Assembly: GCA_003971905.1 (NCBI GenBank)
Contig: RSEE01000055.1
Coordinates: 389,579-453,578 of the forward strand
DNA from: Moniliella sp. 'wahieum'
Lineage: Eukaryota > Basidiomycota > Moniliellomycetes > Moniliellales > Moniliellaceae
Direction: 5' to 3'
DNA length: 64,000 bases
Positions 46,602-55,300 of the stretch are shown here, piece by piece. Position numbers and translations under genes: made by a program. The stretch's first letter is position 1. Every line of letters begins with the position of its first letter. The notes below the pieces were generated by a model. That model saw only the letters and a program-made list of their open reading frames with translations. It made no database searches and was not told where the DNA came from.

Positions 46602-48741
46602 TCATTCCATCCGATCTCGACTGGCCGCTCGCGGGGTGGGAGGAACGGTCGTTGTCCTGGCCTCGGTCCGATCGGGAAAAATTTCCGATCCCAACCCAGT
46701 TTCCGACTCGGCATCCCATCGCTCCAATTCCTCCGTCCCATGCGAACCCGACTCCGAATCGGAATCCGATTCGAGGGGGCCTGCACGCTCGCACCGTCGG
46801 TCTTGGTGCCCAAGACCCGCCCAACCCGGGCGACGGAGCACGCACGCTCTTCGGTCGAACAGGCGTCGACGTAGCGGATGCAGATGCAGATGCGACCCCG
46901 AAGCGGAAGCGGACATGGCTGACGTCGAAGGTATCGATCGACCCCACGCTTCTGTCTCAGCAGCTGCATCAGGTGGTGCACCTAGCGCACTACTTTCCTC
47001 AGCGATCGGACTTGCCTCCCTCTCACCCCAGGCGGGCACACTCAGAACGCTCCGGATCGACCCGTGGCTCGACCGACGAGGACGGCGTCGATTCACCAGG
47101 TCGCGGCCCACGCGGCGCAGAGTTCACTGTTGCCCCGTACGTGCTCGTGCTGCGCGCCGCTTGCACTTCAGCACTCAAAGTCAAATCCAGCCGCTGCTCC
47201 AAAGGCCATAGTGCGTTTGCAGTACCGGCCCCAACGAGAGTAAGAGTAGCGCCAAGAGCAGCGTGGGGACAGGATGCGGAGACCACCCGCTGGGATCGGT
47301 GGGATCAGTGGGTTTGGGAAGGTACAGCCACCCTACCACCCCGGCTCCCAACCATGCTTGGCCCGCGTCCAGCCGCTCGTCCGACAACCGTGGCACAACA
47401 AACGTCCGTCGCGGCGTACCCACACTGGCACAGGCTAATGTCACTAGACTCCCACAGGGCCAGAACGCAATTCGCGACCAGAGAAGGTACGCTGCCAAGC
47501 GGTCCGTAGCTTGGGCATGCGAAAGTACCTGACGCCAGTACCCGACGTGGCTTTCTACCACTTCCATCCCAGCTAATGACATGCGCAGCGTACGTCCAGC
47601 TCGTACGCTACTACACAGCTCGGGATCGTCGCCTGCCGCCAAAAATGAAAAAAAAATGAACATGGGGTGAGAGGGGAGTGGTGAGTGGTGAGTACTGAGT
47701 GAACAAGGGCAGCCTTCCGGAACAGATAGCGTCAATACGTACCATCAGTACCCATATCGTTGCCAACATAGGACTCCAGAAGGCTCCGGCACACATGGTG
47801 AGAGACAGGTGCCCGGTAACGAGAATGCTTGCACACTGCCACGGCACTGGGTCAGCTAACTGTAGGGTCCGCACCAGCGCAGAGAGCAAGGGCCAAGAGC
47901 CGAGAACAAAGTGCAAAGTGCAAAGTGCAAAGGGAAGGCGCAACGTACCAGAAAAAGGATGGTCCAGGCGAGGTGCAGCCGAACAGGATGCGCATGGACG
48001 TAGCGTCGGACCGCAGCGAGCAGCTGGGAAAGGTCGGTGTGGCTGCTGGGCCAGTGCCACAAGGGCCGGTCGGCACTAGGAGGGAGGAGGAGAGAGGGAA
48101 GAGGGAAGAGGGAAGGGCAGAGGTCAGGTTGCTGGCTACCTCGTCACGAAGAGGGAAAGCAAAAGTAAAGCGAGGGAGAGGGGAACGTACGGATCGACGT
48201 GGGGCAAGATGCGCGCGACAGTGGTAAAGACAATGGCAAGAACAAGGACGAGGATGAGGGCGGCACGCACGAGGGTGAGCAGCGTGCGTTGCTTAGCTAC
48301 GGGGGGAGGCATTGTAGGCGGAAGAGGGAGCTCGGGTCAGACGCATCGGCCTCAATGTCCAAGTTGACGTGCAGCGGCAAGTGCGAACTAGAACGAAGCG
48401 CGTACAGCGTGCCCCAGTCGTTCCGCCCTAGGTACTCGTCCTCGCCCCATCGGCCGGCTCGACGGGGGCGACAATATCAATGTGCGCACTGGCGTTGGCG
48501 TCGTCCGTGTCGGGCAGGAAGAGGATCGGGCGGGAGGCTCGGCGGGCGGGGAGGCTGGCCGTGCGTGGGAGGCGGTGGGCTCCGGCGTGGACTCGGCGGC
48601 CATCGCGAGCTGTTTGACCGGCCGGCTGGAGGGGATGGGGGGGTTACTGAGTCGTGTTGTTGTTGTGTTGTGTTGATTGTGGTGGGCGGGCAGGCCGGCA
48701 CGGGGCGGGTGCGCATTAGCTAAGCCAAGCCGCGCCGTCAT
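46602..48741 (-). CDS. VTT-domain (TVP38/TMEM41-like) membrane protein
   Basis: Probable ER or Golgi multipass protein of the VTT/DedA group, some of which act as lipid scramblases. Read on the minus strand: a Pro/Ser-rich N-terminus from 48,741, a first transmembrane segment VRAALILVLVLAIVFTTVA (~48,265-48,210), then after an intron (~48,183 to ~48,081) the exon PADRPLWHWPSS...HLAWTILFL, and after a second intron (donor near 47,946) QAFSLPGT, LTMCAGAFWSPMLAT (~47,850-47,750). The QAF.LPG block followed by a small-residue helix is typical of VTT domains. Later AYLLWSRIAFWPCG and LACASVGTPRRTFVV (~47,480-47,395) fit the second conserved helix pair. A Ser/Glu/Asp-rich tail follows to ~46,602. 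Frame shifts make the ends uncertain. Family assignment rests on pattern, not on a clear signature. Confidence 0.5.
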
Positions 48742-49042
48742 CCATGCCTGTCACCCATCCCTCCCGCCCAGCCGACGTCGCTCGAGATCGGCCGGACGCA
48801 TCTCACCCATCGCACCTCTCACCCTTGGACCGTCTGGCCACGCCCGACTGGCTACGCAAGAGAGCAAGCAGCTCGTCCAGCGCCTATGTCGCGTCTCCCA
48901 CCACACTTACCACACTTACTTCGTGCTTGCCATCGATTGCAGCTGGTTTCTACGCACTGCCCGCGCCAGTCATCGTGGCCTGCGCAGACGACGTGGCAGC
49001 GAGCCGGTTCCGCCTCCGCTCCGCCTCGGCTCCTTCTCCACC

Positions 49043-49834
49043 TCACTCCTTCACCACCTTTTCAATCTCCGGCAGCTGCAGTGTCCGCATCTGCCCATGC
49101 CCCTCAAACACAGCAGCTCAATGTCTGCCCCAACACGCGTCGTCAGTATCCTCACCGCAGGGAAAAGTAGCAACGGAACCCAGGCTGCCAAACACGCAAG
49201 CAAGCAAGCAAACACGTACTCTTCGCCCCCGTCTGCACCACCTCGAGCAAGCTCTTGACCGCGAGCTTGATCGTGTCTTCCTTGTTCATCTCATCCTTGT
49301 AGTTCTTCTCGAGAAACTCGCGCACCGTCTTGGACGACCGGCCGATGGCACACGCCTTCCACGAGTAAAAGATGCCCGACGGCTCGGTCTGGTACAGCCG
49401 CGGCGTAGGGTCGTTGGGGTCAAAGCCCATGATGAGGCACGAGATCCCGTACGGCCGCACACCACCCGACTGGGTGTACTTTTGCGCCATGCCACCAATG
49501 TAGCGCGTGATGTACTCGACCGTCACGGGGTCCTCGACAGTCAGGCGGTGCGACTGGCATTCGACCCGAGCACGGTCAATCAAAATACGTGCATCGGCCT
49601 GCAGACCAGCAAAGGCAAGACACCATGGTCGTCCAGCATCGCCGTCTTGCGCACCGTACGCGGGTCCTGCAGTTGCAGCACACTCTTCTTCTCCACGCCG
49701 AGCACCACAACGTCCTTGCCCTTCACACCGAGCGCGCAGGTACCCTTGCGCACAGCCTCGTTCGCATAGTCCACCTGGAACAGATGCCCGTCGGGAGAGA
49801 AGACAGTGAGTGCACGGTCGTAGCTGCGGGACAT
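49043..49834 (-). CDS. PRE6: 20S proteasome subunit alpha-4 (Pre6/PSMA7)
   Basis: Structural alpha-ring subunit of the 20S proteasome. The start at 49834 opens [20 protein letters not shown], the alpha-subunit signature, then [57 protein letters not shown] and [20 protein letters not shown], all specific for alpha4. Exon 1 is 49,834-49,220; the intron is 49,219-49,125 (GTACGT...GGCAG, 95 nt), with the join restoring KNIELL; exon 2 is 49,124-49,043, ending [10 protein letters not shown]. The frame shifts near 49,625 (between LDDH and [12 protein letters not shown]) and once in exon 2 near 49,098. It is divergent from the Nup98-like gene with 374 bases between start codons. Confidence 0.95.
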
Positions 49835-49866
49835 GTGGTGGTAGTGGTGGTGGTGGTGGTGGTGGG
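49835..49866. repeat. GTG trinucleotide repeat directly before the proteasome start codon
   Basis: About ten GTG/GTA triplets immediately 5' of the PRE6 ATG; on the transcript this is a CAC/CCA repeat in the 5' leader. Confidence 0.75.
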
Positions 49867-50208
49867 GCAAGGCAGCGAGCGCTTGGGCCTGGTTGCTGGT
49901 GCGACACGACGCTTGCTTGGCCCGACCAGGCGGCGCTGACGTTGCCTCGGCCCGTTCCGCCCGGGCGTTCCGCTGTGGGCGACCGTTGATTGATGAGAAT
50001 GGGTGAGGGGCGGCAACGCAGAGTACGTAAGCGTGTGCCAGTAGGGTTGGGCGAGCGGCGCGAGCTTTTTAAATGTTAACATTGAAGGACGCTTATCAAT
50101 ATCAGCCAACTGCGGGCATTCCGTATTGTTCCCATCCCAGCATCCGCCACATCGCATCGCATCCCTCGGCCCTCAGGAGCCACTCTCCGCGGCCACGCCT
50201 CTCCCGCC

Positions 50209-51811
50209 ATGTTCGCCCGCGCCGCGCCCGCCCCACCCCCTCTCCGCCCCATGGCCAGCGCACCCCCCGCCGCGCAGCGCCCATCCCCCGTTTCTCTCCG
50301 CCCCGTCTACGCCCGCAGCAGTGCGCCACCACCCTCGTCTGCTCCATCACCGCCCTGCCCCCGTTCGAGCGCCTGAGCTTGAGGAGCTGCGCGCAGCCGA
50401 CTATGCGCATGGACGCGCCCCGCCTGCCCGCTGATCAGTGCGGCCGATCGCCTGTGGGATCCTTCCTACCATGCCCAGGCACACGAGGAAGCTGGTGGGA
50501 TCATCATGTCGCCGGTTACCCTACCTGGGTACGAGCACCTGAGCTTAGAGGAATTGCGCCTGCTCGATTCCCGTTATGGATTGTGTTTTCCACCTTCCTC
50601 CTGCCCTGTACCTCCAAACGGCACAGCCGCTCACCCCGAACCGCTCACCCCGAATACCGCCCGGCCTCCTTGCCCGATGGATTGTACATGTCCATCACAG
50701 CCATGCCCCCCTACGCCAAAGCCAGCTTCGAAGAGCTCCGGGCGCAGGATTATGCTTGCATGAAAGCCCGAACAAGCTTGGTTGCGTCTCAATCGCCATC
50801 TATATCGAAATTGCCTTCGGAATCGCAATCACAACCGCAATCGGAATCGCAATCGCAATCCGAGCCGGTAGCTTCCGTACCTACTACGCCTACAACCGGC
50901 CCTGCTGTGCCCCACAATGTTGATGCCTTACGGGGACATGAACCACTGGCACCTTTGCCATCGCACTCGGTACCAGCATTGTCGCGCCCACGTTCTTCCT
51001 CTGTGGCTAACGCCAATCCTCCATGCCCCGCTCGAGAGGACAACTGCCCTTTCACCCTACCTGTTCCCCCCACCGCATCAAGCTCCTCCTCACCCCTCGA
51101 CATCGGGATCGACTATGCGCCTATTTGATCCCAACAAGGAAGTGCAATCCATGCCCAAGAGCCTTACCGCAGTCCACCCTTACCTCTGTCCCGCCCTGGA
51201 GGAGCGCCGCCACCGAGCTGGGCGCCTACACGTCCATCGAGCCGGCATCGGGATCGGGATCGGCATCCGCATCGGGTTGGGATTGGTATCCTGCCTTCGT
51301 TCCATTTTCTCTGCACCACTTGAGTTTCATCCGATGGGCTACCACGTCTCCCCTCCCCTTCGCCACCTGGCCACCTTATCCTCGGCCCAGTTGGCTGCAG
51401 TTGACGATCTGACGATCCAAAGGGACGGCTATGGCCTGATCCAGTTCCTCGAACCGGTCGATTTGACCCAGGTACCACTCTCGACCCTCTTGGGCGGCGT
51501 GGTGGTGGTGCGCAAGAAGACCGTGCTGCTGTACCCAGACGCAAAGGAAGTGGACGAATCGGCAGAGGGCGTAGTGGATGGCTGGATCGGCGTTCCACGT
51601 CCACCAGTAGGAAGGGATTGTTGCGCACAGCTTTGGTACGCTTGGAACAGTGCTGGCCTACCACCATACCGCACACTAACTGGCCCATTCGCGATACTGC
51701 CCATCCTGCCTCCCGTCGGTACGTGGCGAGCTTGCGCGCCCGCCGAAGCAACGCTTTGTCGCGTACGACGCAGACAAGGGCCGCTGGACTTTCCTCACAC
51801 ACTGGGATTGA
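50209..51811 (+). CDS. Nup98/Nup116-like nucleoporin: three GLEBS-like motifs plus APD
   Basis: Nuclear-pore component of the Nup98 family, which binds Gle2/Rae1 through a GLEBS motif and docks to Nup96/Nup82-type partners through its C-terminal domain. The ATG at 50209 lies in CCGCCATGTT. Three copies of the GLEBS end are seen: SITALPPFERLSLEELRAADY (~50,343; shown as two parts SITALPPFER and LSLEELRAADY), TLPGYEHLSLEELRLLDSRY (~50,518), and SITAMPPYAKASFEELRAQD (~50,691). A Ser/Gln/Pro-rich linker follows, then an autoproteolytic domain (~51,330-51,811): GYHVSPPLRHLATLSS, LTIQRDGYGLIQFLEPVDLT, GGVVVVRKKTVLLYPD and FVAYDADKGRWTFLTHWD directly before the stop. I see no FG repeats. The HF-S cleavage site of Nup98 is replaced by HWD-stop. 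Frames shift near 50,381 (one G missing), 50,590, 51,110 and 51,620. Confidence 0.75.
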
Positions 51812-52310
51812 GTGATGCATGATGGGAATGAGCACAGCGTGGGGGTAAGCGTGCGGTTGGTGGGATCCTTTTTCTTCTTTCTTTTGAGCCCGATTGGGTT
51901 GGAGTGTGCATGTGGATCGGAGCAAACATCTGGGAAACTGTCGCAACCAACAGATATATAGTCCGCGTAGATCTTACGCCCTTGGATGGGTCGTGAACGA
52001 TGCGTGGTGATCGACAAGTACCAAGTGCGGGCGCGTTGAAACGTTGAAGATTCAATTGAATGGCGAGGGGCGTCCACGCGTCACCTATCTTTCACGCATC
52101 ATCCGTTTCCCTGCTGCCTCCGTCGCTGTTCCGCCAGAGGGCGGAATGGGGCGTGCAGCGCACTGATGCATGATGCTGCGCCATCGCATGCCATGTCGCA
52201 GATGGCTCCCCTCAGGCCTCCCGGGCGCCACCACCACCGATTGCCACCCATTGCCACCGCCATTGCCACCGCCATTGCCACCGCCATCGCCACCATTGCC
52301 TGTTGCGCAC
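51812..52310. other. Spacer between Nup98-like and TAF1 genes
   Basis: Contains TATATA at ~51,955 and CCATTGCCACCG repeats (~52,238-52,300) near the TAF1 start. No gene seen. Confidence 0.5.
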
Positions 52311-55300
52311 GATGGACGAACGTGACGAGCGTGGGGCATCCGACATGCTCGGGGCCTTGGCCTGGGCCAGGTGCTGCGTGAGCTCGGCGTCGCCGACGAG
52401 GGTCGTCCGAGGCAATGCACAAGCTCGGGCTGGCCCAGCACTCGGCTCTGCAGGCATCGACCATCTACAATGACAACTTTGAGGACGACGATGGCGGTCT
52501 TCCTGAGCCCGAGATGACCGAGGAGGAAAAAATCGCTCGCGCCCAACAGCAGGCCGAAGCTGAAAAGTATTATCGTCTTGGTGCCGCCTCGCTCCTGCCA
52601 CAACACAAGTCGGAGGAACAAATCCTCCGCGAGAAAAAGGAGAAAGCACAGCTCGTTCTTAACCAACTCAAACAATTGTTGCCTGCGTACAAACGTGATG
52701 CCGTACTTGACTTTACCGAGCTGTTTACTGCACCCCGCCCAGCCAAGAAGCGCAGGTTGGTCCCACCCAAGGGGTTTGGTGCGTATCCCCTATCTTTTGC
52801 CCTCCCCTCGCCCCCCTTCCCCACCCCCCGCCACTCCCTCGTGCTAACACTAACACTCTCTTCCAGGTCTGGCTCCTCCTCCGGCTGTGCCCTTGAGCAG
52901 CGACAGGAGGTGTCGCGCTATCACCCAGATGTGACAGTGCGGCCAGTTTCAGACTTGGTGGACAAATTCAAAACGACCTCGGGCCGGCCCGCGGCCGGGT
53001 GGAGCAATTGCAGGAAGAACTGTTGGACCCTTCCTTGTCGACGGAAGGATGGAAAAGCCAAGCGTGGACTGTGGCTGAGGGCGACTTCTTCCGTAAGGCC
53101 GCCACACTCACTGACGACTTTGATTGGGACGACGCGATTCGGTGGCACGCTCAACTCAAACCCAAGGGACCCACCCAGTTTTACTTTGACCTGAACGATG
53201 ACCAGATGGTGTTTGAGGAGGTGACGCCGGATGCGTCCAGTGCCCAGGTACAGCACCTTTCTGCCCGTGCCGCACGCTCGGCAGCCAACTTGAACCCCTC
53301 AATTGTCCAGCGACCGGTTCTATGAGATCCCAAGAGAGCATCGGCAGAAGGTGCGACAGACTTTGGGTCAATTGGTTGTCCAGCACGCTCGTCCTGCTGC
53401 CCATCTTCAACTGCCGTTCTACAAGACGCGCTTGATCAAGGAAGAACTCAATTCGCTCCATCGTCCTCCCATCCAATTCCCAACCAACATTGTCATCCCG
53501 TTCAACAAGGTCCAGTCCAGTCGCAAGGACCGACACAAGAAAGCTAAGGGAAAAGATGCGTTTGACGTGTTCCACTCGACCAGCGATTTGAGTCTGAAGG
53601 ATACAAGCTCGTTTGTTGTACGAGTACTCAGAGGAACACCCGCCCGTACTGTCCAACTATGGTATGGGCCACATTCTCGTCAACTACTTCCGTAAGAAGA
53701 GTGCCAAGGAAGAAACCATCCCGCGTGCCGACTTGGGCGAGACATTTGTGTTGGAACCACAGGACGAATCGCCGTTTATGGGATTTGGTCAGTGGAGCCA
53801 GGACAGATGCAGCCAACACTGTACAATAATATGATCCGAGCCCCACTCTTCCCCCACAAACCCCAACCCACTGATTTTCTCTTGATCCGCAACACTAACA
53901 AGGACCAAGTCACCTACCATCTCCGCAACATTCAACACGCCTTTGTTGTCGGCCAACAGTTCCCCATTGTCCAGATCCCCGGACCACATGCACGCTTGGC
54001 CACCAACTTGATCAAAACTCGCCTCCACATGATTGCCCACAAACTCATCCAGCGCAGCAAGGGTCATCGGATCAAGATGCATCGCGTCATGCGCTACTTT
54101 CCCGATTACAACGAGTTGCAGATGCGCCCACGACTCAAAGAGTTTATGGAGTACAACCGCAAAGCTGGCGATCCCGATCAGGGCTTTTGGAAATTGATGC
54201 CCGGAGTGGTGGTGCCAGAGGAAGGTGCATTGTACAAGCAGCTCCCACCGGAACATATGGTCCTATGCGAGAGCATGCAAGCTGGCCAACAGCGTTTGGT
54301 CGATCTGGGTCTACTGAAATTGGGCGACGATGCGAATGAAGATGAAGATTCGGGCGAAGGGAACGAAGTGGAGCAGTCAGTGGCACCTTGGTTGTCGAGC
54401 AAAAACTTTTTGAATGGTGCATCGGGCAAGGCGATGCTGGCCCTTCATGGAGAAGGTGATCCATCCGGTCGTGGCGAGGCGTTCAGTTTCATTCGTGTCT
54501 CGATGAAGGAGATTTTCATTGCGGCGGGCGAGGATCCATTGGAAAAGCGCGCGGCAATGGAGGCTGAAGCAATGAGCAAGTCGGGTCACCGGTACAATGT
54601 CGCAGAACAACAACAAATCTATCGCTCGGAAATCAATCGTATCTGGGCGGCGCAACGGCGTGCGCTCAGCGCCCCTAAACCACCCAAAATCACACGTCGC
54701 GATTTGGTCCCCCTCCACCGTGCTGTGCGCGCATACGAACAGGAAATCCTGGCCAACCAAGAAGCAAGGGAGGACGAGGCGTTCTCGGCTCCACCTACGA
54801 ACCACGATCGGTACGAGGGTAAGATCCTTCGTATTCGTCGCTTGGTCGATGGCGAATGGCGCACCGAGTATGTACGCGACAGGTCAACGATGGAGGATTA
54901 CCTCCGCCAACGACAGACCATGTTGGATGCCCAGATGGAGACGGAACAGCTGGCTCCGACGGGCGATGCAGTGTTGGATGCTGCGCGGCAAAAACGCATT
55001 GCACAAGCTATTGCTCATCTTAAGAAATGCCAGGACCGGCGGATGCAACGGAAACAAGCCCAGGCTGCCTCGGTGGGAAAAACGTTGGAAATCAACTTAC
55101 ACAAAGCAGCTACCCAACGCACGTGTGGACGGTGCGGTCAAGTAGGCCATATGGCCACCAACACTTCCTGTCCCTTGTTCAATAAAGTCCCACCGGCTCC
55201 AGCCTCTGCTGCCGCAGCTGCCGCTGCAGCTGCAGCGACGCTAATATGTCCTTGACCAACATGCCCGTCGGACTGGGATCAGCTAACCCCTTTGCCCTGT

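Follow-up and report, generated by a model that had tools for sequence, protein, structure and literature searches.

Nup98 homologues normally carry GLEBS docking and the FG barrier in a single polypeptide, so it is difficult to tell apart what each contributes to the export of RNA and ribosomes. On the docking side, R172 and R216 of Rae1 are described as bridging to E201/E202 of the Nup98 GLEBS; in the same source, yeast Gle2 mutated in both arginines showed no co-enrichment with Nup116 and pre-60S, and a Nup116 glutamate mutant no longer brought Gle2 to pre-60S (PMC3783196). An APD-type domain is described as the anchor of Nup98 to the scaffold (PMC4283134). In Chaetomium the Nup145N domain is reported to bind the Nup82 propeller, and the yeast Nup82 complex to be tethered via Nup145N, Nup116 and Nup100 (PMC5653651). 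Within the yeast paralogue trio, a fusion precursor is described for Nup145 only (PMC4283134). The absence of FG repeats is by itself already known, since rice APIP12 is reported to have GLEBS and Nucleoporin2 without FG (PMC5311014). No description of a multi-GLEBS Nup98 homologue was found in the literature searched, where most subscription journals are missing, and the word GLEBS is absent from the available text of two reviews on pore evolution (PMC8421043, PMC6371224). What appears to be new at the locus presented here is the multiplication of GLEBS in an FG-less Nup98 homologue, with Gle2 binding predicted from the sequence.

The DNA analysed, referred to below as the window, is a stretch of 64,000 nucleotides (G000:C55:389579-453578) from a Moniliella assembly of 69.5 Mb in 223 contigs. 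An earlier note, made from the letters of the window, had described a Nup98-like gene, and this was borne out by a PF04096 domain at its C-terminal end (Table 1). The note had also placed an upstream gene 374 bases away, which agrees with a proteasome gene starting at 49834, about 375 bp upstream. The downstream gene with the PF12157 match is one that we take to be TAF1-like. Elsewhere, the window contains an open frame with a dual-specificity phosphatase domain (PF00782; 15469-16971, plus strand) and a SKN1/KRE6 domain, the latter in keeping with a fungus. On balance, we favour reading the Nup98-like gene as a fungal FG-less, Nup116-like Nup98 paralogue with a tripled Gle2 site, which would dock as many as three Gle2 molecules at the pore.

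Table 1. Features of the FG-less gene and its neighbours (positions within the window)
Feature	Position	Strand	Remark
Whole gene: Nup98-family paralogue without FG, made up of N-terminal stretch, three GLEBS-like units, linker and anchoring domain	50210..51811	+	
Short N-terminal stretch, Pro/Ala-rich and without FG, with a probable start codon	50210..50342	+	Frame partly certain; 1-base indels between copies
R1, GLEBS C-arm 1	50343..50416	+	Single frame on C7; one base short in window copy
R2, GLEBS C-arm 2 (SPVTLPGYEHLSLEELRLLD)	50509..50583	+	
R3, GLEBS C-arm 3 (SITAMPPYAKASFEELRAQDY)	50691..50765	+	Best match of the three
14-bp word, two tandem copies between R2 and R3	50627..50654	+	C7: one copy of the last 13 bases
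Linker, Ser/Pro/Gln-rich	50766..51309	+	Frame uncertain in places
APD (Nucleoporin2) domain, first part	51310..51614	+	PF04096 positions 2-75; closest to Nup116
APD, second part	51612..51745	+	Different frame in window; on C7 shares frame with domain end
APD end, ...GRWTFLTHWD-stop	51742..51811	+	Without His-Phe-Ser cleavage site, without Nup96
Upstream divergent neighbour, proteasome alpha-7 (Pre6/PSMA7) type	49155..49834	-	
Downstream neighbour, TAF1-like	52382..55252	+	PF12157; zinc knuckle slightly below cut-off

The three GLEBS-like blocks of the earlier note (R1, R2 and R3) were all present on the plus strand. R1 is interrupted in the window by a 1-base gap within S-(L/F)-EELR, while in the second copy of the gene (on C7) R1 and R2 are readable in one open frame with a spacing of 168 bp (56 codons). 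R2 and R3 are 182 bp apart in the window, which becomes 168 bp when one copy of the 14-bp word is subtracted. In the damaged arrays the spacing was 166 bp, both for R2-R3 on C7 and for R1-R2 in the window. An intron between R2 and R3 was considered and rejected by eye, as no splice-site pair was common to both copies.

A leave-out profile HMM, whose sole sources were the C-arms of human Nup98 and of the canonical GLEBS of the same genome, with R1-R3 excluded, was run against ORFs translated in six frames from the window and from four further loci. R3 was detected with an i-E value of 1.9e-9 in the window and 4e-8 on C7, R1 on C7 with 6.3e-6, and R2 with 0.0012 (window) and 0.0042 (C7). Apart from the canonical gene, the first unrelated ORF followed at E 2. 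All three units were thus found by a model made of bona fide C-arms, the behaviour expected of GLEBS homologues. When R3 was used as a query against the 69.5-Mb genome, five matches were obtained: R3 in its two haplotypes, R1 of C7, and the canonical GLEBS in its two haplotypes. On the strength of the leave-out model and the genome search with R3, we reject a chance motif.

Over the 25 residues of the C-arm, R1 shares 12 identities with R2 and 16 with R3, and R2 shares 9 with R3; the numbers for the comparison with the canonical GLEBS of the same genome are 13 (R1), 11 (R2) and 16 (R3). When the first two units were compared over their opening 37 residues, motif included, 13 ungapped identities were counted, a value that none of 100,000 shuffles reached. 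The tandem glutamate, which is the EE of S-(L/F)-EELR and the equivalent of E201/E202, is found in all three units. All three units have shorter N-arms than the canonical GLEBS, a point against the reading that we favour. The C-arm alone reportedly suffices for binding, a finding ascribed to Ren et al. in 2010. An aromatic-x-Pro anchor can be seen in all three N-arms (p ~0.005 under local composition), but we discount this post hoc test because the pattern was seen first and the aligner leaves the anchor of R2 out of register.

We also searched the genome with the Pfam GLEBS model (PF21240, cut-off 27 bits). R3 scored 24.8 bits, below the cut-off, and R1 of C7 scored 16.3 bits, near an unrelated match at 14.9, while R2 was absent among the matches listed. 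The canonical GLEBS itself scored 31.6 bits, matching positions 19-39 only. A search of R1+R2 against PDB sequences returned the human GLEBS chain at E 1.8 only, beside an unrelated chain at 1.7. With R3 far ahead of the other two units in the Pfam search, and with R2 departing from the motif outside SLEELR, where its D-Y and S-I-T portions are lost, the gene could encode a docking protein of the Nup116 kind in which a single GLEBS works: R3 would bind Gle2, and R1 and R2 would be remnants of a tandem duplication that have since diverged. We consider this unlikely, given that the glutamate pair is kept in every unit, that the leave-out model recovers R1 of C7 at the value given above, and that the GLEBS blocks jointly differ between the copies by 2 non-synonymous versus 9 synonymous changes.

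Part of the interpretation in the earlier note, namely a member of the Nup98 family without FG, with three units and with functions divided between paralogues, stood up to the analysis; what it had overlooked is the anchoring domain, encoded from 51,334 to 51,811, with which the idea of a pore scaffold rises above guesswork. PF04096 scored 58.8 bits in the window and 60.1 in the genome search, and the C7 sequence of its second half scored 32.4 bits, all above the curated cut-off of 28.4 that marks membership of the Nup98 family. Neither copy has the complete APD in a single frame: it is spread over three frames in the window, and on C7 the second half keeps one frame as far as the stop. The three pieces are 38%, 40% and 33% identical to the canonical APD (E 1.9e-22, 1e-8 and 1.8e-4). 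The second piece of the window found nothing among PDB sequences, whereas the corresponding C7 piece did match. In both copies the domain terminates in THWD-stop at the place where the canonical gene has HFS and then Nup96, so the Nup96 fusion and the His-Phe-Ser cleavage site of canonical Nup98-Nup96 are absent. One scan each of viral and prokaryotic contig collections gave no relative of the first APD half, a result that, from the nature of these collections, has no bearing on the distribution of the gene.

No FG repeats were present in the frames carrying GLEBS or APD in either copy, in agreement with the earlier note. Counted over all three frames, FG dipeptides number two in each copy, window and C7, none of them in the local GLEBS/APD frame; a 3.2-kb stretch of canonical Nup98 has 34 in its best frame. 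The FG/GLFG repeats typical of canonical Nup98 and of Nup116 are therefore missing from this gene, and no hidden FG exons were found within the gene interval 50210..51811. FG repeats are of low complexity and collapsible, and the assembly is error-prone, so real repeats might have been dropped or might lie in a distant exon. This is highly improbable: FG is absent in both haplotypes, the canonical FG repeats did assemble in both haplotypes, and the gene is hemmed in, with its divergent neighbour starting about 375 bp before it and the TAF1-like gene following it.

A search of the genome for other, FG-bearing Nup98 paralogues, which had been proposed as a check, revealed a GLFG-rich Nup98-Nup96 gene (C49/C89) with GLFG repeats, one GLEBS, the HFS site and Nup96. 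The existence of a separate FG-rich Nup98-Nup96 in the same genome fits the proposal that paralogues have divided the functions of Nup98 among them. In addition, the 3' part of the Nup98-96 autopeptidase domain, HFSRY included, was found once on its own (G000:C9:275330-275596; L011 4331-4597, minus strand). This piece has ~77% DNA identity to the canonical gene, its 9.9-kb locus has no FG cluster, and it is probably a dead fragment copy.

The partner proteins were then identified. Gle2/Rae1 is encoded by one gene with two haplotype copies (C57 and C67), 42 to 51% identical to the human protein, depending on the piece. Both copies have Arg at the positions of human Rae1 R172 and R216. With EE in all three units and both arginines kept in Gle2, binding is predicted. 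The Gle2 on C67 (L031) has the N-terminus MSLFG and several FG dipeptides, like human Rae1. A Nup88-family gene is also present, its match being found once, on C107.

The FG-less gene occurs twice, on C55 (window) and on C7 (L010), with 92.8% identity over 8,023 columns and the same architecture in both. Canonical Nup98-96 is likewise present twice (C49 and C89; 95.6% over 9,989 columns). We infer that the paired copies of the gene, of Nup98-96 and of Gle2 are two haplotypes that were kept apart. An uninterrupted frame is absent from both haplotype copies of the FG-less gene, and the frame-breaking indels of the assembly had escaped the earlier note. Between the copies there are 18 of them, or 11.3 per kb (8.3 in the GLEBS part and 13.4 in the APD part), the highest whole-gene rate among the stretches compared. 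Elsewhere, the TAF1-like gene had 9.3 per kb, the proteasome gene 5.0, the canonical APD + Nup96 part 7.3, and the upstream stretch 47022-49240 had 9.5. As the rates in the compared stretches are similar, the frame breaks look mainly like assembly error. Indels at 5 to 13 per kb were seen even in conserved genes (47022-54900; L008/L009, L010/L012), and with frame-breaking indels so frequent, the assembly wants polishing before its gene models are trusted. As a separate observation on the assembly, rDNA on another contig matches eukaryotic SSU, 5.8S and LSU models and has a fungal look on inspection; matches to the rDNA probe fall on 11 contigs, several of them near contig ends (L026-L029 among the loci), and the SSU 5' region of L028 contains words resembling CCCTAACCC. 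A search for IFT46, as a sign of a flagellum, returned nothing, but its controls returned nothing either, which makes it uninformative.

Haplotype identity was 94.9% for the whole gene, 96.4% for the GLEBS part and 96.5% for the APD part, with 95.6% in the upstream stretch and 98.0 and 97.7% in the two neighbours. The whole gene is thus no more alike between haplotypes than the upstream stretch and less so than its neighbours, which counts against the reading that we favour. Frames for the substitution counts were picked by homology, and alternative frames were compared for the second APD piece only, where the chosen frame gave a pN/pS of 0.28 and the other two 0.66 and 2.24. Allelic change in the GLEBS blocks was of the coding type, with 9 synonymous and 2 non-synonymous changes in 131 codons (pN/pS 0.07) and differences distributed 0/2/9 over the three codon positions. 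The first two APD blocks had 9.5 synonymous and 5.5 non-synonymous changes in 137 codons (0.21), and the last APD piece had 1 and 2 in 24 codons (0.53). Four TAF1-like segments gave 0.05, 0.48, 0.04 and 0.13.

These counts bear on whether the gene is a decaying pseudogene with genuine frame breaks. Any reading of it requires several frame changes in both copies, its frame-break rate is the top whole-gene value, and the 14-bp duplication of the window copy could mark a real broken allele; moreover, just 8 of its 16 one-base indels lie in homopolymers, where the TAF1-like gene has 16 of its 19. The background rates are similar, however, substitutions track codon position, and a paralogue with an APD ~38% identical would hardly be recognisable without selection. 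Since the neighbours are also frame-broken and the GLEBS blocks change in a coding manner, we regard a pseudogene as improbable.

Comparison of the APD with known structures gave mixed signals on descent. The first half scored 57.1 bits with Nup116, 37.7 with Nup145 and 28.3 or less with Nup98; the second half scored 31.7 with Nup116 and 18 with Nup145, Nup98 being absent among the 7 matches listed. The Nup116 structures 2aiv and 3nf5 are presumably those of S. cerevisiae and C. glabrata. In a six-sequence tree of the first half, the FG-less gene was joined with Nup116 at 84/88 support, which is below the mark of the tool. A ~15-residue extra stretch after the YPD strand is common to the APD of the FG-less gene and to the Nup98 of the same genome; it corresponds to a gap in the solved human domain, and the positions in the solved Nup116 chain leave no room for it. 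This shared stretch points against the Nup116 descent suggested by the scores, and the gene may go back either to a lineage-specific duplication or to an older Nup116-like split.

According to the reading that we favour, an FG-less Nup98 paralogue with a tripled Gle2 site, the APD-type C-terminal domain would anchor the protein at the pore. Its three tandem units, 56 codons apart and each with a Gle2-bridging glutamate pair, may hold up to three Gle2/Rae1 propellers, and three docked Gle2 would amount to dense local non-FG docking for Gle2-bound RNA or pre-60S cargo. Canonical Nup98-Nup96 would supply the FG barrier, to which the FG-less protein would contribute no FG repeats. The outcome would be Gle2 clustered locally at the pore, serving the export of mRNA and pre-60S. 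It is from the anatomy of the gene and its partners that we infer three-fold Gle2 binding, copy number, pore location and a role in export.

The location at the pore has a competitor. A protein without FG has no need of a seat in the channel, and the gene product could instead be an off-pore buffer or regulator of Gle2 (e.g. nucleoplasmic or mitotic), one that would vie with Nup98 for Gle2 or bind Bub3, a related propeller. Overexpression of the Nup98 GLEBS is reported to mislocalize Rae1, with accumulation of poly(A) RNA in HeLa nuclei (PMC3783196), so a free GLEBS can act as a decoy. We find this quite unlikely for a protein that has kept an APD-type domain, the domain by which Nup98 homologues are reported to be tethered to Nup82 (PMC5653651) and Nup98 to be anchored to the scaffold (PMC4283134). 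Beyond the anchored, trivalent Gle2 docking protein that we favour, we put forward only tentatively, as a possibility, that the jobs of Nup98 have been naturally separated in this genome into an FG barrier gene and a barrier-free trivalent Gle2 docking arm, providing FG-independent multivalent docking for Gle2-bound mRNA or pre-60S cargo. If true, evolution itself would have produced a separation-of-function design, in the form of a protein that has three Gle2 sites and lacks FG; the GLEBS units of the gene are short enough for direct testing.

In comparison with known systems, canonical Nup98-Nup96 (C49/C89 and human) has a GLEBS and an APD homologous to those of the FG-less gene, and differs from it in its GLFG repeats, single GLEBS, HFS cleavage site and Nup96. 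The Mac and MicNup98 of Tetrahymena provide a parallel for labour divided between Nup98 paralogues, but are described as having kept GLFG or NIFN repeats (PMC5450191). Yeast Nup116 is similar in having an APD unfused to Nup96 and a GLEBS, and it is the best match for both APD halves; its chain (2aiv) ends 7 residues past the aligned part, and the FG-less gene 3. Unlike the FG-less gene with its three units, Nup116 of S. cerevisiae is described with a 740-residue FG domain and one GLEBS (PMC4283134). Rice APIP12 is described as a Nup98 homologue with GLEBS and Nucleoporin2 and without FG, encoded beside FG-bearing Nup98 genes and interacting with OsNup96 in yeast two-hybrid (PMC5311014). The FG-less gene has the same combination of GLEBS and Nucleoporin2 without FG and, if our reading is true, would extend this architecture of GLEBS plus anchor from rice to a fungus, with the docking site multiplied; APIP12 has one GLEBS and is a plant protein, and the likeness drawn here is one of architecture.
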